A DNA stretch of 64,000 bases from an uncultured Alphaproteobacteria bacterium. Its GTDB lineage: Bacteria; Pseudomonadota; Alphaproteobacteria; Micropepsales; Micropepsaceae. The notes under the pieces were generated by a model. That model did no database searches. It was not told the origin of the DNA and worked only from the letters and a program-made list of their open reading frames with translations. The position numbers and the translations under genes are program-made. Location: positions 1-64,000 of the forward strand of contig CADEFU010000002.1 in the NCBI GenBank assembly GCA_902826695.1, read 5' to 3'. This document shows positions 3,441 through 59,457 of this stretch, in pieces; the stretch's first letter is position 1, and each line of letters starts with the position of its first letter.

Positions 3441-3495
3441 GATTTCTGCGAATGAAGCGGGCGGTTGTCGCGCGTTTGCGATCTGGCGGGCGCTT

Positions 3496-3510
3496 GTATA
3501 CACTGTATAC
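3496..3510. promoter_or_regulatory. Probable TetR operator abutting the tetR start codon
   Basis: GTATACA-C-TGTATAC is a perfect 7-bp inverted repeat around one central base, ending directly before the ATG at 3511. Position and symmetry fit an autoregulatory operator for the TetR protein that follows. With no room left for a Shine-Dalgarno, the mRNA may be leaderless or nearly so; the TATACA-like arm could double as a -10 element. Binding is inferred, not shown. Confidence 0.7.
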
Positions 3511-4092
3511 ATGGCGACGAAGGAGCGTATATTGGCTGCGGCCAAGGCGGCGTTTGCGGCGGAGGGACTTGCCGGCGTTTCCGTGCGCAGGGTCGCCGGG
3601 GCGGTCGGCATCACGCCGATGGCCGTCTATCGCCACTACGCCGATAAAGACGCGCTGATCAATGCGCTGGTCATGGACGGACTTACTGCTTGGGAGGTGC
3701 GCGTGCGGCGCCGCAACGGCGCGACCGCTCTTCAGCGCATCGAACACATGATCGAACTGTTCATCGACTTCGCGCTTAAGGAGCCGCGAACGTTCGAAGC
3801 CGCGTTCTTGCTGCCGGGCCACGACGCACGCCGGTTTCCAAACGACTTCGTGCGCGGGCGCTCGCCCGCCGTCGCGCTCCTGCAAGCCGACATGGAAGAC
3901 GTGTTGCGCGAACGCGGCTTGCAGCCGTCGTTGGCGTTGGAGGTCTGGTTGATGCTGTGGGGCTTGGGGCAGGGGCTTGTATCGTTGTATCGGGCGGGAC
4001 GCATGGAGGGCGGTGCGCGTGCATTTCGTGCGCTGGCGCGCAAGCTCTTGCGGCGCAGCTTGTACGCAATGTTGAACGAGGGGGCCGCATGA
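3511..4092 (+). CDS. TetR/AcrR-family transcriptional regulator
   Basis: 193 residues with a typical N-terminal TetR helix-turn-helix: ERILAAAKAAF, then SVRRVAGAVGITPMAVYRHYADKD around residues 28-51. A variable ligand-binding domain follows. The ATG at 3511 was chosen because the family motif begins four residues later. A longer frame exists upstream, but it runs back through tsaD and the operator. The gene overlaps the next (ATGA at 4089-4092), so it is co-transcribed and probably translationally coupled to the CN-hydrolase, its likely target. The palindrome touching the start codon suggests it represses its own operon. The ligand cannot be predicted. Confidence 0.92.
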   Translation: MATKERILAAAKAAFAAEGLAGVSVRRVAGAVGITPMAVYRHYADKDALINALVMDGLTAWEVRVRRRNGATALQRIEHMIELFIDFALKEPRTFEAAFLLPGHDARRFPNDFVRGRSPAVALLQADMEDVLRERGLQPSLALEVWLMLWGLGQGLVSLYRAGRMEGGARAFRALARKLLRRSLYAMLNEGAA

Positions 4093-5468
4093 AGGCCGTC
4101 ATCTGCACGTTGCTGAGCGGTGCTGGGTTCTATCTGTCGCTGCACTTGGGCGAGATCTGGACGCTCGCCTGGTTGGCGCCTGTCCCCGTACTTTGGTTTG
4201 CGTTCGGCGATGCGCCGCGCGCGCAGGCGTTCTCTGCGTCGTTTGCGGCGTATGCTCTTGGGCTGCTCAATTTGCTCGAAGCGTACGGCAACGTTCTTCC
4301 GCTCGCGGTGATGTTGCTGGCGATTGCCGGACCATCATTGTGTTTCGCACTTGCGGTGCTCGGTGCGGGGCGGATCGCACTAACCATTTCGCCGGCCGCC
4401 GGCGTCGTCGGCTTTGCAGCGCTTTGGACCGCAATCGACTACGCGCTTGCGTTTGGACCGGATGGCGCCGTGACGTCGCCTGCCTATAGCCAGGTCGCGG
4501 CCGTTGAGCTCATTCAGTCGGCATCGGTGTTCGGTCTGTGGGCGGTGACGTTTGCGATCGGATTCGTTGCGGCGGGTATTGCGATGGCAGCCGCACGCAA
4601 GAGCGCGGTGTCTGGGCTGCTCGCGATCTTGGTGTTCGGGCTCAACGCCGGGTACGGCGTGTGGCGCCTCGATGCGGTGTCTAGCGGTGAAGATGTGGTT
4701 GTGGGCCTGGCCGCCGACGATTCCCTGGGAGAGTCGGGATTTGCGAACGACGCCCCCTCCGCCCTCAAGGCGATCGATGCCTATGCCGGGATCGCGCGCG
4801 ATCTTGCCGTACGCGGCGCCACGCTGATCGTGCTGCCCGAGAAGTTTGCGGTGCTATCGCCCGCGTGGCGCGATGAGGCCTTGGACCGGATGCAAGACGT
4901 TGCGCGCACGACGGGTGCGACGATTGTCGCCGGGTTCGACGAGCGGGCGCGGCAACGTTTGAACCAGGCGTATGTGTTCGAGGGCTCGGCGGCGCCGCGC
5001 GTGTATTCAAAGCGCAGGCTGGTTGGTGGGCTTGAAAGCGCGTTCGCGACCGGCCAGGCGCCGCTGATGCTTGCAGATCGGACGCTTGTCGCTATCTGCA
5101 AAGACATGGACTTTCCCGGGATGCTGCGCGGCGATGCTTCGCTCGGTCCGCGGATTGCCGCGATACCGGCGTGGGACTTCGACCGGGATGCTTGGGCGCA
5201 TGCGCGCATGGCCCTTATGCGCGGCGTCGAAAACGGGTTCGCCGTCGTGCGGTCTGCGCGCCAAGGACTATTGACGGTGTCGGATGCAAACGGGCGCGTG
5301 CATGCCCGCGCTCAAAGCGACGGTGCCGGTCCTAGTACGCTTGTTGCGCGGATTGCTCGCGGCCCGTCATCGACGCCGTACACGGCGCTTGGCGATGTTT
5401 TCCCAATCGGAGCGACCGTCCTGGCTGCTCTGCTGTTGGGATTACCGGCGATCAGGCGACGCGGCTAG
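4089..5468 (+). CDS. Membrane-bound CN-hydrolase, Lnt-like paralogue
   Basis: 459 residues: a hydrophobic N-terminal half with about six membrane segments (to residue 190), then a nitrilase/CN-hydrolase domain. The expected triad is present: E251 in LPEK, K308 in YSKRR and C337 in ICKDMDFPG. This resembles apolipoprotein N-acyltransferase, which acylates lipoprotein N-termini in the periplasm, but it lacks the canonical Lnt signatures (PFGEYLP, CYELIFP) present in the housekeeping copy at 57853. It may therefore acylate or hydrolyse something else. It is coupled to the TetR gene by a 4-nt overlap, and its 3' end overlaps the convergent gene by 4 nt. Fold and triad are secure; the substrate is unknown. 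Confidence 0.8.
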   Translation: MKAVICTLLSGAGFYLSLHLGEIWTLAWLAPVPVLWFAFGDAPRAQAFSASFAAYALGLLNLLEAYGNVLPLAVMLLAIAGPSLCFALAVLGAGRIALTISPAAGVVGFAALWTAIDYALAFGPDGAVTSPAYSQVAAVELIQSASVFGLWAVTFAIGFVAAGIAMAAARKSAVSGLLAILVFGLNAGYGVWRLDAVSSGEDVVVGLAADDSLGESGFANDAPSALKAIDAYAGIARDLAVRGATLIVLPEKFAVLSPAWRDEALDRMQDVARTTGATIVAGFDERARQRLNQAYVFEGSAAPRVYSKRRLVGGLESAFATGQAPLMLADRTLVAICKDMDFPGMLRGDASLGPRIAAIPAWDFDRDAWAHARMALMRGVENGFAVVRSARQGLLTVSDANGRVHARAQSDGAGPSTLVARIARGPSSTPYTALGDVFPIGATVLAALLLGLPAIRRRG

Positions 5469-6721
5469 GGTGCGTCGGTACACGAGACACCGGCTCTTTG
5501 TTTCAGCGCCGTGCACAGTTCGGCGGCGGTGACGGTCTCGCCCTGACTTTTCAAGAGGGCGGCGAGGTGCGAGGTCGCGATCCGGTGCAGCGGCGCGTAG
5601 ACGAGGACGCGGCGATACCACGTCTCCGCCTCGCCGAGTGCACCACCGGCACGATAGCGGTCGGCGATCAAGACGCCCAACTCGGCGTACCAAGGACGGA
5701 CGCGTGCAGCTTCCTTGTCGTAGATGCGCGTCATCGCAGCGTAGGCTTGCTCGAAATAGGGGAGCGCTTCCGCGTTGCGTCCCGAGATTTCCAAGACGTC
5801 GCCGATGTTGATCAAGGGGCCCCAGGCATCGGGATCGATCCCGACCGCCTTCTTGTAGGACGCGATCGCCTGATCGAACGCGCTACCAGCGCTTTGCACG
5901 AAACCCAACGCCTTGTGCGCCGCCGGGTCGCCGGGTGCAAGTGCGACCGCACGCTCAGCCAGCGCTCGCGCACGGCCGAGGACCCGTTTGGCCGGTTCCG
6001 TTTTCGCGCGGCCGCTTTTCAACGCGTCTTCGAGTCGGGTGTATTCAGCGGTTCCGGGTTGATCCGGCCAACGGATCACCTTCTGGACCAGCGCGTTGGC
6101 AAGGCCCGCGAGCGCCGGGGCATATTCGGGACGTTCGGCCAGTACACGCTCGAACAGCGCGATCGCGGCTTCGTTGTCGGCGCGCGTGTATTGGAAATAG
6201 AAGTCGTTGGCGCGTTCGACCAAGACCTTTTCGCTTGGCGGTGCTTTGGCCGACGGTGACGGCCAGAACGCGAGCGCGAGCGCAACGACTGCGGCAAGGG
6301 CGGCGAGTCCGGCTGCGATGGCAGGGCGCGGCAACTCCCGCCGCAACGCGGCCGGCGGTGATGCAATTGCGATCGCAACGTGCGGATCGTCCGCAGGGCG
6401 AACATCGGCGATCAGGCGGTAGCCGCGCTTGGTAAGCGTTTCGATGTAGGCGGGGGTTTTCGCATCGTCCTCCAGCGCTTTGCGCAGGCGCGACACGGCA
6501 CGCGCCAGCGAGTCGTCGCCGACCACGACATCGGGCCAAAGCGCGGCCATGATGTCGTCCTTGCTGAACGCCTTGCCCGGGCGGCCGGCCAGCAGGAACA
6601 AAAGGTCCATGACCTTGGGTTCAAGGCGCTCGGCGGCACCCTCCCGCGTCAGCTCCCCGGTGGTCCGGTCGGCGCGCCAGGCCCCAACAAAAAGTGCAGT
6701 GGGTTGCTGGTTTTCCGGCAC
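5465..6721 (-). CDS. CadC-like membrane-anchored winged-helix regulator with TPR repeats
   Basis: 418 residues. Residues 1-105 are an OmpR/CadC-type winged helix (LEPKVMDLLFLLAGRPG, then SLARAVSRLRKALEDD and the wing KRGYRLIADV). One membrane helix lies near 132-152 (AAGLAALAAVVALALAFW). The rest is a periplasmic TPR-type array (PEYAPALAGLANAL, PAAHKALGFVQSAG, PWGPLINIGDVLE-like units). This architecture senses an envelope signal and binds DNA while anchored in the membrane. There is no receiver domain or partner kinase. The target may be the divergent S41 peptidase gene, about 110 bp upstream, but that is inferred from position only. Confidence 0.85.
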   Translation of the reverse strand: MPENQQPTALFVGAWRADRTTGELTREGAAERLEPKVMDLLFLLAGRPGKAFSKDDIMAALWPDVVVGDDSLARAVSRLRKALEDDAKTPAYIETLTKRGYRLIADVRPADDPHVAIAIASPPAALRRELPRPAIAAGLAALAAVVALALAFWPSPSAKAPPSEKVLVERANDFYFQYTRADNEAAIALFERVLAERPEYAPALAGLANALVQKVIRWPDQPGTAEYTRLEDALKSGRAKTEPAKRVLGRARALAERAVALAPGDPAAHKALGFVQSAGSAFDQAIASYKKAVGIDPDAWGPLINIGDVLEISGRNAEALPYFEQAYAAMTRIYDKEAARVRPWYAELGVLIADRYRAGGALGEAETWYRRVLVYAPLHRIATSHLAALLKSQGETVTAAELCTALKQRAGVSCTDAP

Positions 6722-6830
6722 TTTCCAAGGCCCTCAGAACTTCATCAGGAAAATGGGAGGCTATCGTCCTGACTATATAGGGGTGCCCTGGTAACGCCGG
6801 AAGCAGGTCTTTATGTGAGGGAGATTGCCC

Positions 6831-8261
6831 ATGCGCCTCGTTGCCTGCATCGCCGCCGTCTTGTCGCTTACTGCGGCCGCGGCGGCTGTGCCACCGCTAG
6901 AGCGGCGGTTCGAGCCTCAGGTGGTCAAAGCCGATTTTGCCGAACTCCATGCACGGCTGGCCGCCTCGCATTTCGACCTCTACGCGCGCCGTCCCAAGCG
7001 CGACTATGACGCCTTGTTCCAGACTATGATCGCGAGCTTCGACCGGCCGATGACGTCGACCGAAGTTCGCGTCGCGTTCCAAAAGTTCGTGGCGTTTGGC
7101 CGCGTGGCGCATTCGAACATCGCCTTTCCGTCGGACGCCTATGGCACCTTTCGGGATGGCGGCGGGCGCGCGTTTCCTGTACCGATCCGGGTGAAAGCGG
7201 GACGGCTCTTCGTGGTCGACAGCGGCGGTGCCGGCTCGGTCGCCCCCGGCGAAGAGATTGTTGCCCTGGACGGGCAACCGGCGTCGATCTGGCTACAGCG
7301 TCTTGGCGCGCATGTCTCTGCCGATAACGACTACATGCGCGATACGCTTTTGGAGAACCGGTTCTCGCAGCTCCTTTGGCTCGAACTCGGAGCGCCAGAG
7401 CAGTTCAAACTGAACTTGCGCGACAGGCGCGAGGTCCTGGTTCCAGCCCGAACGCGCGCCGAAATGCGTGCGGCGGCGGGGCAAGCGCAGGGGCTCGAAC
7501 TCGATTGGGATGCACGCACGTTTCGTATTGTCGACTCGGTCGGCTATCTGAGGCCGGGCCCGTTCTACAACAACGACCCGAATGCGCCCGATATTTGGGA
7601 CGTCACGCGGTTCCGCAGCTTCATCGATACGTCATTTGAGGCACTGCTGAAGGCGCAAGCGCGGGCGCTTGTCATCGACTTGCGGGACAATCCTGGTGGC
7701 GACAATTCGTTCAGCGATCTGATGGTGGCCTGGTACGCGACGACGCCATTCCGCTTCTGCCGCGATTTTCGTATCAAGATGAGCGAGGCCGCCGTTGCGT
7801 CGAACGAGAAGCGCGTTGCGGCGGCACCCGGCGACACGCAAGGCATTTCGGCGAAGTTCGCAGCCGCTTATGCGAAGCATCGCATCGGCGAGGTCTTTTC
7901 GTTCGATATGCCGGTCGCGTCCCCGCGGGCCGGCGCCCGGTTCACCGGGAAGGTCTATCTGCTCATCAACCGCCATTCGTACTCGAACGCGGTGCAGGTG
8001 GCGGCGTTGTCGCAAGACTATCGCTTCGCGACGATCGTGGGCGAGGAGACGTCGGATCTCGCGACGACTTATGGGGCGATGGAGCAGTTCACTCTGTCCC
8101 GGACCGGAATCGAGGTCGGGTTCCCAAAGGCGCACATCGTTCGCGTAAACGGGGATGTGAGCGCGCGAGGCGTCGTGCCGGATATTGCGATCGAGACGCC
8201 GGTCGTGGAGCCGCGGTCGGATGTGGTGTTGCGAGAGGCGCTGGCGATTGCCGCGCGCTAG
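6831..8261 (+). CDS. Exported S41-family peptidase (C-terminal processing protease-like)
   Basis: 476 residues from ATG 6831, preceded by a GAGGGAG Shine-Dalgarno eight bases upstream; a TTG two codons earlier is less likely. Residues 1-19 form a signal peptide ending in an alanine run. A central region with PDZ-like spacing (GEEIVALDGQPA, near 140) precedes the S41 core: VIDLRDNPGGDNSFSDL at about 281, and NRHSYSNAVQ at about 380 carrying the candidate nucleophile S383 or S385. It probably acts in the periplasm or outside the cell. It is transcribed away from the CadC-like regulator, which may control it. No lipobox is present. Confidence 0.85.
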   Translation: MRLVACIAAVLSLTAAAAAVPPLERRFEPQVVKADFAELHARLAASHFDLYARRPKRDYDALFQTMIASFDRPMTSTEVRVAFQKFVAFGRVAHSNIAFPSDAYGTFRDGGGRAFPVPIRVKAGRLFVVDSGGAGSVAPGEEIVALDGQPASIWLQRLGAHVSADNDYMRDTLLENRFSQLLWLELGAPEQFKLNLRDRREVLVPARTRAEMRAAAGQAQGLELDWDARTFRIVDSVGYLRPGPFYNNDPNAPDIWDVTRFRSFIDTSFEALLKAQARALVIDLRDNPGGDNSFSDLMVAWYATTPFRFCRDFRIKMSEAAVASNEKRVAAAPGDTQGISAKFAAAYAKHRIGEVFSFDMPVASPRAGARFTGKVYLLINRHSYSNAVQVAALSQDYRFATIVGEETSDLATTYGAMEQFTLSRTGIEVGFPKAHIVRVNGDVSARGVVPDIAIETPVVEPRSDVVLREALAIAAR

Positions 8262-8270
8262 GCGGGCCCC

Positions 8271-56881: not shown

Positions 56882-57860
56882 CCCTGAACAGGGCGCGCCT
56901 TCGGCCGAGCAAAGCCCCCCTAGTCATAAGCCGTCGTTCTGGCCGCAGTCTTTTGTGACGGCGGTGTGGAAACTCGTGGGCGGCAAGGACGACTCCAAGA
57001 AGCTTCGCGAGAGCTTGGAAGAGGTCATCGAAGAGAGCGACGCGCAGGGTCGGCCGCTCGCGCGCGAAGAGCGCTCGATGATGCTCAACATCTTGAATTT
57101 CGGCGAACTGAAGGTCGCCGACATCATGGTGCCGCGCGCGGACATCATCGCCGTCGCGGAAGAGACGCCGCTTTCGGAGCTCGTGAAGATCTTTCGCGAT
57201 GCGCAACACTCGCGGCTGCCGATTTATCGCGAGACGCTCGATAATCCGATCGGGATGGTTCACATCAAAGACTTGATCGGGCTTGCGATTCCGGAAGGCG
57301 AGGGATCGGTTCATCCGAAGACGATTCAAGACATCGTGCGCGCGGTTTTGTTCGTCCCCCCATCGATGCCGGTCGTCAACTTGCTCGTGAAAATGCAGTC
57401 TACGCGGGTGCATTTGGCGCTGGTGATCGACGAGTATGGCGGGACCGACGGGCTCGTTTCGATCGAGGATCTGGTCGAGCAGATTGTGGGCGACATCGAA
57501 GACGAGCACGATACCGACGAGACGAAGATGATCGTGCCGCGGTCGCCCGGTGAGTTTGACGCAAGCGCCAGGGCCGATCTGGACGAGGTCGAGAAGGTCG
57601 TGGGCTTTCGGTTGCTCGACGACGAAGACGCGGAAGAGACCGACACGCTCGCCGGCCTCGTGTTCCAACTTGTGGGCCGTGTGCCGCAGCGCGGCGAGAT
57701 CGTGAAGCACCCTGCCGGTGTCGAGTTCGAAGTGCTCGACGCCGATCCGCGAAAGCTGAAGCGTTTGCGCGTGCGGGTGACGAAGCCGCTGGAAACGGCG
57801 ACGCAGCCTGACGCGAGCGATAGCGGTGCCGCAAAGCCGATGGCCGCGGTGAATGGCTGA
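56874..57860 (+). CDS. CorC/HlyC-type CBS-domain protein
   Basis: 328 residues. Two CBS domains (DIMVPRADIIAVAEETPLSE near 83, and FVPPSMPVVNLLVKMQSTR near 160) are followed by DEYGGTDGLVSIEDLVEQIVG and a CorC_HlyC C-terminal domain. No membrane segments. It may help Mg2+/Co2+ efflux or membrane-transporter control, as proposed for CorC; the exact role is unsettled. GTG start overlaps ybeY; the stop overlaps lnt by 8 bases. Confidence 0.92.
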   Translation: MPDPEQGAPSAEQSPPSHKPSFWPQSFVTAVWKLVGGKDDSKKLRESLEEVIEESDAQGRPLAREERSMMLNILNFGELKVADIMVPRADIIAVAEETPLSELVKIFRDAQHSRLPIYRETLDNPIGMVHIKDLIGLAIPEGEGSVHPKTIQDIVRAVLFVPPSMPVVNLLVKMQSTRVHLALVIDEYGGTDGLVSIEDLVEQIVGDIEDEHDTDETKMIVPRSPGEFDASARADLDEVEKVVGFRLLDDEDAEETDTLAGLVFQLVGRVPQRGEIVKHPAGVEFEVLDADPRKLKRLRVRVTKPLETATQPDASDSGAAKPMAAVNG

Positions 57861-59457
57861 GACGATTGCAGGACGCTTCGCCAACCTCAATTTGATTGCG
57901 CGTGTTGAAGGCGCGGCGGCGTGGGCTCGTTCCTGTGCCGGGCGGGGCCGCCTGCTTGTGGCCGCAGGGATCGGCGCGCTGTCGGCGTTGGCGTTCGCGC
58001 CATTCTACCTTTGGCCGCTCTTGTTCATCACCTACCCGATGCTGGTTTGGTTGATCGACGGCGCGATGTTCGCGGCGCGGCCGTGGCGCACGGCGGCACT
58101 TGTTGGGTGGGCGTTCGGGTTCGGCTTCTTTCTCGTCGGTCTGCATTGGATCGGCTTTGCGTTTGTCGTCGATTCCGATCAGCACGCGTGGCTGTTGCCG
58201 TTTGTCGCCGTCTTGTTTCCCGGCGGCCTCGGCCTGTTCTTCGCGCTTGCGGCAGGGCTGGCGAGTTTGCGGTGGCGTGGGTGGGCGCGCGTTGTATTCC
58301 TCGCCGCAGCGCTCTCGGCGGCCGAATGGCTGCGTGGGCATATCCTCACGGGATTTCCTTGGAACCTGCCTGGCTACGTCTGGAGCGGGACGGATGCGAT
58401 GTTTCAGGTTGCGTCGGTCGTCGGCATTTACGGATTGAGTTTGCTGACGCTGATCGCGTTTCTGGCTCCCGCTGCGATCGTTGACTCGGACGGGCGCAGG
58501 TCAAACGCTCGTTTGGCGCTTGCGGCTCCTGTCGTGATTCTTGGCGCGCTGTTCATCTTTGGGTGGGCGCGGTTGCCGGCCGCGCCGGCGGCGGTGTTTG
58601 CCGATGCGACTGTGCGCATTGTGCAGCCGAATGTTCCGCAGACTGAGAAGTGGAAGCCGGAGTTCTTTGAGCGGAACTGGCGGATACTCCTCGACCTGAC
58701 GCGAGAGCCGGGTCTTGAGACGCGCACGATCGTCGTTTGGCCAGAGGCAGCGCCGCCGCTGGCGTTGTTGGACGACCCAAATGCGCTTGAAGTCATCAGC
58801 GTGATCCTGCCGGATACGACGAGCCTTTTAACGGGGACGATCCGCATTGAACGCGGGGAAAATCGCCGCTTTTTCAACGGCATGGCGGCAGTGTCCGGCC
58901 AAGGGAAGGTGCTTGCGACATACGACAAATCGCACCTCGTTCCGTTCGGAGAGTACTTGCCGCTCTACGATTTGCTGACGCCGCTTGGGATCTCGCAAAT
59001 CACGGGCAAGGGTCAGGGGTACACGGAAGGTTCAGGGCTTCGGTCGCTAACCATTCCTAACGTGCCCGCATTCAGTCCCCTGATTTGTTACGAGCTAATT
59101 TTTCCCGGCGAGGTAACGGAACCGGGAAAGCGTCCCCAATGGCTGATGCAAATGACCGACGATTCGTGGTTCGGTCCTTGGACTGGCCCCTACCAGCACC
59201 TGGGGATAGCAAAAGTTCGCGCGGCCGAAGAAGGTCTGGCAGTCATTCGCGCAGCCAATACGGGTGTCTCCGCAATCATAGACCCCTATGGGCGAATCAT
59301 TTCTTCGCTCGGGCTTGATAGGACGGGAGTCCTCGATGGCGAACTCCCCCGCCCGTTGCCGAGCACAATATATTCCGTGCTCGGAGATATTATTTTCGCG
59401 CTCCTGCTCGCTGGAATGACAGGCATCGGATTCATTTTTTCCAGATCATCCGCATAA
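57853..59457 (+). CDS. lnt: Apolipoprotein N-acyltransferase (housekeeping Lnt)
   Basis: 534 residues. About seven membrane helices, then the CN-hydrolase domain facing the periplasm with the triad E298 (VVWPEAAPP), K359 (YDKSHLVPFGEYLP) and C412 (ICYELIFPGE). It adds the third acyl chain to lipoprotein N-termini. corC-lnt adjacency is conserved. A second, divergent family member is at 4089. A 317-bp gap follows. Confidence 0.95.
   Translation: MAETIAGRFANLNLIARVEGAAAWARSCAGRGRLLVAAGIGALSALAFAPFYLWPLLFITYPMLVWLIDGAMFAARPWRTAALVGWAFGFGFFLVGLHWIGFAFVVDSDQHAWLLPFVAVLFPGGLGLFFALAAGLASLRWRGWARVVFLAAALSAAEWLRGHILTGFPWNLPGYVWSGTDAMFQVASVVGIYGLSLLTLIAFLAPAAIVDSDGRRSNARLALAAPVVILGALFIFGWARLPAAPAAVFADATVRIVQPNVPQTEKWKPEFFERNWRILLDLTREPGLETRTIVVWPEAAPPLALLDDPNALEVISVILPDTTSLLTGTIRIERGENRRFFNGMAAVSGQGKVLATYDKSHLVPFGEYLPLYDLLTPLGISQITGKGQGYTEGSGLRSLTIPNVPAFSPLICYELIFPGEVTEPGKRPQWLMQMTDDSWFGPWTGPYQHLGIAKVRAAEEGLAVIRAANTGVSAIIDPYGRIISSLGLDRTGVLDGELPRPLPSTIYSVLGDIIFALLLAGMTGIGFIFSRSSA

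Follow-up and report, generated by a model that had tools for sequence, protein, structure and literature searches.

The DNA analysed here, the window, is a stretch of 64,000 nucleotides from an uncultured alphaproteobacterium of the family Micropepsaceae (contig CADEFU010000002.1, positions 1 to 64,000). It carries a gene pair encoding a predicted TetR-family repressor and an Lnt-like membrane enzyme, preceded by a palindromic operator in which a candidate promoter element is embedded. The features of this locus, together with the canonical Lnt gene used for comparison, are as follows:

3476..3481, + strand: -35-like hexamer TTGCGA of the proposed tetR promoter (4/6 matches to TTGACA; 17 nt from TACACT)
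3495..3511, no strand: operator palindrome TGTATACACTGTATACA with its core at 3496-3510, covering the A of the tetR ATG
3499..3504, + strand: -10-like hexamer TACACT within the operator (TACnnT in 10/10 tetR-linked loci)
3511..4092, + strand: tetR, predicted TetR-family repressor of 193 amino acids with TetR_N and TetR_C_33 domains (Pfam)
4078..4084, + strand: Shine-Dalgarno-like GAGGGGG upstream of the enzyme ATG
4089..4092, + strand: ATGA stop/start overlap of the tetR and enzyme genes, read from the sequence
4089..5468, + strand: gene for the Lnt-like membrane CN-hydrolase of 459 amino acids, with the triad E251, K308 and C337, and E316 at the position of E343
57853..59457, + strand: canonical Lnt of the same genome (TIGR00546 294.6 bits; cut-off 132.9)

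This layout agrees with the original prediction made from the letters of the window. The two genes overlap by 4 nt, with the tetR TGA at 4090-4092 and the enzyme ATG at 4089-4091; a perfect repeat, GTATACACTGTATAC, occupies 3496-3510 and directly precedes the tetR ATG, which starts at 3511; the E-K-C triad of the enzyme is encoded at 4839-4841 (E251), 5010-5012 (K308) and 5097-5099 (C337); and the gene at 57853, which had been taken for a normal Lnt, does score above the cut-off of the lnt model. The GC content of the tetR-enzyme pair, 0.65, is not distinctive.

The regulator matches TetR_N with 44 bits (cut-off 24; Pfam), and its predicted model (pLDDT 89.7) has a TetR fold, with a Z of 17.0 to the best solved TetR. 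An assignment of its ligand from structure was abandoned, as the comparison returned generic TetR matches alone, including EthR2, BkaR, FadR and QacR at Z values of 14-17. A role in anti-phage defence was considered and dropped, as PADLOC gave 0 families for either protein; PHROGs placed TetR in a single family of unknown function and had no family for the enzyme.

The operator core can be extended by one base on each side, i.e. to 3495-3511, which yields the perfect palindrome TGTATACA-C-TGTATACA, ending on the A of the tetR start codon. With up to three mismatches allowed, it is the sole match in the window, where 0.14 matches are expected from shuffles. In the 4.3-Mb genome, the pattern GTATACNNNGTATAC (GTATAC-N3-GTATAC) has a single exact match, which is at the tetR operator; near matches comprise one site with one mismatch and 14 sites with two mismatches, with the reversed control pattern giving 35 sites. 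The motif GTATAC-NNT-GTATAC or a variant form of it is found at the tetR start in all ten tetR-linked loci described below, the variants being GTCTAC or GTGTAC on the left, GTAGAC on the right and GTATAT in the Phyllobacterium locus L018. Five loci have no gap between operator and start codon (0 nt), two have a gap of 1-2 nt and the three from Phyllobacterium one of 20 nt, and a second copy of the operator is located slightly upstream in Catellatospora (L024) and Solihabitans (L025). When a degenerate form of the operator was searched for in 121 loci, amounting to 880,716 bases (a total that counts overlaps, many of the loci being overlapping), all matches were either at the start of the orthologous tetR or represented the second copies in Catellatospora and Solihabitans; five shuffles gave 0, 0, 0, 0 and 1 matches. 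From the sequences, autorepression of TetR through the operator at 3495-3511 is very probable.

Among 387 genomes of the class, exact GTATACRSTGTATAC is present in five and the reversed control pattern in two. One of the five, G231, does not belong to the known carriers of the enzyme and has two copies of the operator where a more distant tetR begins (L122, 1501-1536), whose product reads VTPMALYRH in the recognition-helix region, close to ITPMAVYRH in the window TetR. Because this tetR shares the operator along with a similar helix, the operator appears to track the type of recognition helix and not solely the tetR-enzyme module. Close to the G231 tetR are reading frames that we take to be amidohydrolase-like and thiamine-diphosphate-enzyme-like. 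Near the site in the other two GTATACRSTGTATAC genomes outside the known carriers, no TetR or enzyme match was found.

All ten tetR-linked loci have a T as the last of the three operator spacer bases, which generates the constant TACnnT hexamer; this T goes beyond the demands of the palindrome, since GGT spacers break its symmetry. A hexamer with at least four of six matches to TTGACA is located 16-18 nt upstream of TACnnT in nine of the ten loci. The tetR ATG has no Shine-Dalgarno-like sequence and a start about seven bases past the -10 hexamer would be at this ATG, so that the message is predicted to be leaderless. We consider a leaderless transcript start at tetR likely in view of this arrangement, against which count the three Phyllobacterium loci with their 20-nt leaders containing purine-rich stretches. 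Across the tetR-linked loci, the sequences predict an operator-embedded and autorepressed promoter that would mostly produce leaderless messages. A generic promoter scan (threshold of 9 out of 12 matches) did not report the proposed tetR promoter, which has 8/12, and instead gave TATACA-16-TATATT at 3506-3533. This candidate was rejected, as its TATATT is inside the tetR gene and absent from the other nine tetR-linked regions.

Relatives of the pair were collected from one genome scan (13 loci) and from further genome and plasmid searches, with duplicates counted once among the ten tetR-linked loci (L016, L010, L038 and L051 as G019; L015, L042 and L119 as G425; L024 and L043 as G424; L052 and L089 as G438; L009 and L046 as G034). 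Neighbours were tested on all reading frames, as the gene caller had overlooked the enzyme gene of L021, L023 and L097. In this neighbourhood search for tetR next to a CN-hydrolase gene, an orthologous tetR immediately precedes the enzyme gene in the same orientation in 10 of 35 loci, i.e. the window, G034, G019 (L016), L015, Phyllobacterium L018, L019 and plasmid L033, Catellatospora L024, Solihabitans L025 and G438. These loci fall into the Alphaproteobacteria and the Actinomycetota, and three of them are near copies from one genus (Phyllobacterium). Pairwise identities of TetR and enzyme co-vary (Mantel r 0.96, 0/5000 permutations, with the three near-copy Phyllobacterium rows kept). Altogether, a regulator stands beside the enzyme gene in 19 of the 35 loci: in addition to the ten with tetR, nine actinobacterial loci (L020-L023, L026, L090 and L092-L094) have a homologous two-component system of a LuxR-type response regulator and a HisKA_3 kinase, which is co-directional and upstream in five Planobispora/Planomonospora loci and divergent in the four others; those sampled carry Response_reg plus GerE and HisKA_3 domains. 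By the neighbour test used, 16 loci have neither tetR nor a two-component system, with L097 and L098 among them having a two-component system at a distance of 2.7-4.5 kb. A conserved third gene was considered and dismissed, as the outer neighbours vary between lineages. Enzyme relatives are present in 4/387 genomes of the class and in 24/298 genomes of the order to which the Catellatospora genome G424 belongs.

Locus L047 (7184-8782; same protein as L011) encodes a homologue without an orthologous tetR, in which the K and C of the triad are replaced by E and S; the TetR encoded at this locus is unrelated and goes with another palindrome. The homologue in L045, likewise without tetR, retains the triad.

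In the genus of the window genome, tsaD is directly followed by the homologue of the window sequence from about 8270 onward in seven of nine relatives with a tsaD locus. At this site, G002 has two other genes, one of them with a LytTR domain, and G007 has a short piece of other DNA. The interval between tsaD and the sequence that precedes gpsA looks like an insertion site of the genus, with the window genome, G002 and G007 each harbouring different DNA there. Besides the pair, the insert in the window (3441-8268) contains a winged-helix/TPR gene and a gene for an S41 peptidase (Pfam); in the other lineages listed, neither of these is found alongside the pair. The tetR-enzyme pair is accessory: the insert is missing at this site in most relatives of the genus, and few genomes of the class have a relative of the enzyme.

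What kind of enzyme would be controlled in this way? Pfam recognizes LNT_N (35.2 bits) and CN_hydrolase (34.7 bits; gathering cut-off 23.2), and the AlphaFold model, made from 11 aligned proteins with a mean pLDDT of 90.1, predicts the two-domain fold of Lnt, i.e. a membrane domain and a nitrilase domain. The best PDB matches of this model are all Lnts (Foldseek TM ~0.8; VIA Z 36.4 over 445 residues at 2.8 A with 18% identity), followed by soluble amidases over the nitrilase domain. The triad is conserved in nearly all of 37 aligned enzymes (E in 37/37, K in 35/37 and C in 36/37), and the equivalent of Glu343 in 28/37. As originally claimed, the window enzyme is devoid of Lnt signatures: it scores 81.8 bits with TIGR00546 (lnt), i.e. 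below the cut-off, and has lost Arg139, Gly447 and Arm3. A paralogue in G425 reaches this cut-off with its pieces summed (142.1 bits). A TraB-like conjugation protein was also considered for the enzyme; this assignment was discarded, as the plasmid matches listed are named nitrilase-related hydrolase, lnt or hypothetical protein, and none of them TraB.

The separation from canonical Lnt is seen in the phylogeny as well as at single positions. A maximum-likelihood tree splits 37 enzymes and ten canonical Lnts by one branch with an SH-aLRT of 98. The 37 enzymes of the tree and of the residue counts omit the near copies L020 and L022 as well as the distant or weaker L013, L014, L027 and most of L063-L075; the Lnt set consists of the window gene and nine loci, with L108, L113 and L115 out of 12 having given no row. 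PMC5500888 counts Arg139, Tyr388, Glu389 and Gly447 among the essential, important or highly conserved residues of E. coli Lnt. In the 37 enzymes, Arg139 is found in none and Gly447 is a gap in all; the Tyr388 position is Y in two, and the Glu389 position is E in one and D in 35. In the window enzyme, K338 and D339 follow the catalytic cysteine, giving CKD versus CYE in Lnt. At the positions of the L1 GFPW lid, G145 is G in 3/37, F146 is G in 37/37 and W148 is W in 7/37. The segment between E343 and C387 comprises 14-24 residues versus 41-44 in the ten canonical Lnts, with Pro353, Phe358 and Met362 of Arm3 being lost. The Trp237 column of the same alignment has W in just three of the ten canonical Lnts. 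Loss of the substrate arms of Lnt argues against general lipoprotein acylation, and we hold with good confidence that the enzyme is not a general apolipoprotein N-acyltransferase. A canonical Lnt was above the cut-off in 16/16 carrier genomes tested. The conserved operator, the separate clade, the lost gating features and this constant presence of Lnt lend good support to one part of the original interpretation, namely a second, regulated Lnt-like enzyme distinct from the housekeeping Lnt.

A mechanism can be proposed that connects these features. A TetR dimer would bind the 17-bp palindrome over the -10 hexamer and the start point of a sigma-70-type promoter, with this binding blocking expression of its own gene and of the enzyme gene. 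Upon release of TetR by a small ligand, a leaderless transcript would begin at the tetR ATG or no more than two bases away from it, and the enzyme would be translated from this tetR message, using a start that overlaps the tetR stop and has its own Shine-Dalgarno sequence. As judged from its fold, the enzyme would reside in the inner membrane with the nitrilase domain facing out as in Lnt; it would form a thioacyl-enzyme at C337. Acting at the membrane on a small or lipophilic compound, it would most likely cleave off an amide or acyl group by hydrolysis, or else pass this group on to a small nucleophile; the loss of the Lnt loops that guide phospholipid and lipoprotein favours such a substrate. 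The substrate would probably be related to the TetR ligand, with the module serving detoxification or scavenging. We thus read the pair as an accessory, ligand-inducible sensor-enzyme module, whose enzyme would cleave or transfer an acyl or amide group on a non-lipoprotein substrate, and assign this sequence-based reading a probability of roughly 0.5. Within it, hydrolysis seems slightly favoured over transfer, and the role in detoxification or scavenging is tentative. We infer induction from the architecture of the locus and from the repeated pairing with dedicated regulators; as to the envelope or amide substrate originally suggested, an acyl or amide substrate that is reached from the membrane or periplasm would fit the predicted fold and the triad.

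Alternatively, the enzyme could be a conditional second apolipoprotein N-acyltransferase, carrying out the Lnt reaction only in particular circumstances or on some of the lipoproteins. Full-length fold and triad are the same as in Lnt, the match to the lnt model is weak but significant (with 18/18 members of A2 matching, at E values up to 0.001), and Lnt2 of S. scabies affects the efficiency of N-acylation as stated in PMC3850990. However, the Arm3 loop, Arg139, Tyr388, Glu389 and Gly447 are lost here, several of these being essential or important in E. coli Lnt (PMC5500888), and the enzymes form a separate clade in genomes in which canonical Lnt is always present (16/16), all of which makes this quite an improbable explanation. 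Retention of the triad and of an Lnt-type membrane domain, which in Lnt opens the active site to the membrane (PMC5500888), would also be expected of an acyltransferase that uses a phospholipid or another acyl donor to modify a different amine, such as a small amine, an amino lipid, a polyamine or an antibiotic-like compound. Yet the enzyme has lost the substrate-guiding loops of Lnt, the nitrilase domain resembles soluble amidases as well, and the neighbouring genes suggest no acceptor, so we regard such a transferase as unlikely. A further option is that TetR mainly regulates unlinked genes, with the enzyme being incidental or decaying. Same-type operators before the more distant TetR of G231 and the loss of K and C in L047 could be taken in this sense, but the genome has one exact site only, its near matches are fewer than those of the reversed control, the pair has been kept as a unit in ten loci with varying outer neighbours, and the triad is intact in 35/37 enzymes; we give this option hardly any weight.

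The accessory sensor-enzyme module can be placed next to several known systems. The window enzyme shares the full-length fold, the E-K-C triad and, inferred from this fold, the outward nitrilase domain with the Lnts of E. coli and P. aeruginosa (5n6h, 8b0k, 5n6m), but lacks Arm3, Arg139, Tyr388 and Gly447, has Asp for Glu389, comes with its own TetR and stays below the lnt cut-off. There are precedents for Lnt paralogues that do not take over from Lnt: both Lnt2 of S. scabies and BCG_2279c of M. bovis are additional Lnt-family genes beside a functional Lnt, with the available portion of PMC3850990 mentioning no link to TetR; BCG_2279c has Ser in place of the catalytic Cys, whereas the window enzyme has Cys. 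Soluble amidases such as 3hkx (Nesterenkonia) and 6ypa (Pyrococcus) share the nitrilase fold (Z ~26-28 over ~228 residues), the triad and, in the aligned amidase, the C-x-D motif, but the window enzyme adds the Lnt-type membrane domain. A TetR-fold protein next to an enzyme gene with a palindromic operator is familiar from a survey in which 55 of 372 streptomycete TetRs belong to the probably co-transcribed class (PMC3511530); what differs here is that the window operator holds the -10 hexamer and reaches the start codon, with a predicted leaderless message. A word search of open-licence full texts found no description of a tetR-linked Lnt-like enzyme.

Many genomes hold more than one gene of the Lnt family, and related plasmid copies are variously named lnt, nitrilase-related hydrolase or hypothetical protein. 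Such genes can be distinguished from true Lnt with the help of the short spacing from E to C, the C-x-D motif, an own regulator and the separate clade. The paired TetR and its cognate operator also offer an experimental handle, as an agent that lifts the repressor would be a lead to the substrate. If real, the operator-embedded leaderless promoter would be a compact inducible switch common to two phyla. More speculatively, and on balance doubtful, these enzymes could constitute a widespread and unrecognised family of sensor-coupled membrane amidases, which would degrade or reshape a membrane-located natural product of lipophilic amide type. The TetR ligand would be this substrate or a closely related compound, and expression on demand would take place under a TetR in Alphaproteobacteria and some Actinomycetota or alongside a two-component system in other Actinomycetota.

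Two minor observations concern the surroundings of these genes. On the mobilizable plasmid pWH01K (L036), a relative of the enzyme is located near genes annotated as GNAT acetyltransferases, as a BAAT-domain hydrolase and as members of the aminoglycoside phosphotransferase and zeta toxin families. In the window itself, positions 670-2289 on the - strand form a single frame in which HemC (porphobilinogen deaminase), truncated in its C-terminal domain, is fused to a chromate-transporter domain; this is the sole hemC match in the genome. Its alignment to relatives of the genus starts near 1415-1460 in most of them, and the fusion may have arisen by rearrangement or reflect an assembly joint close to where the contig starts.
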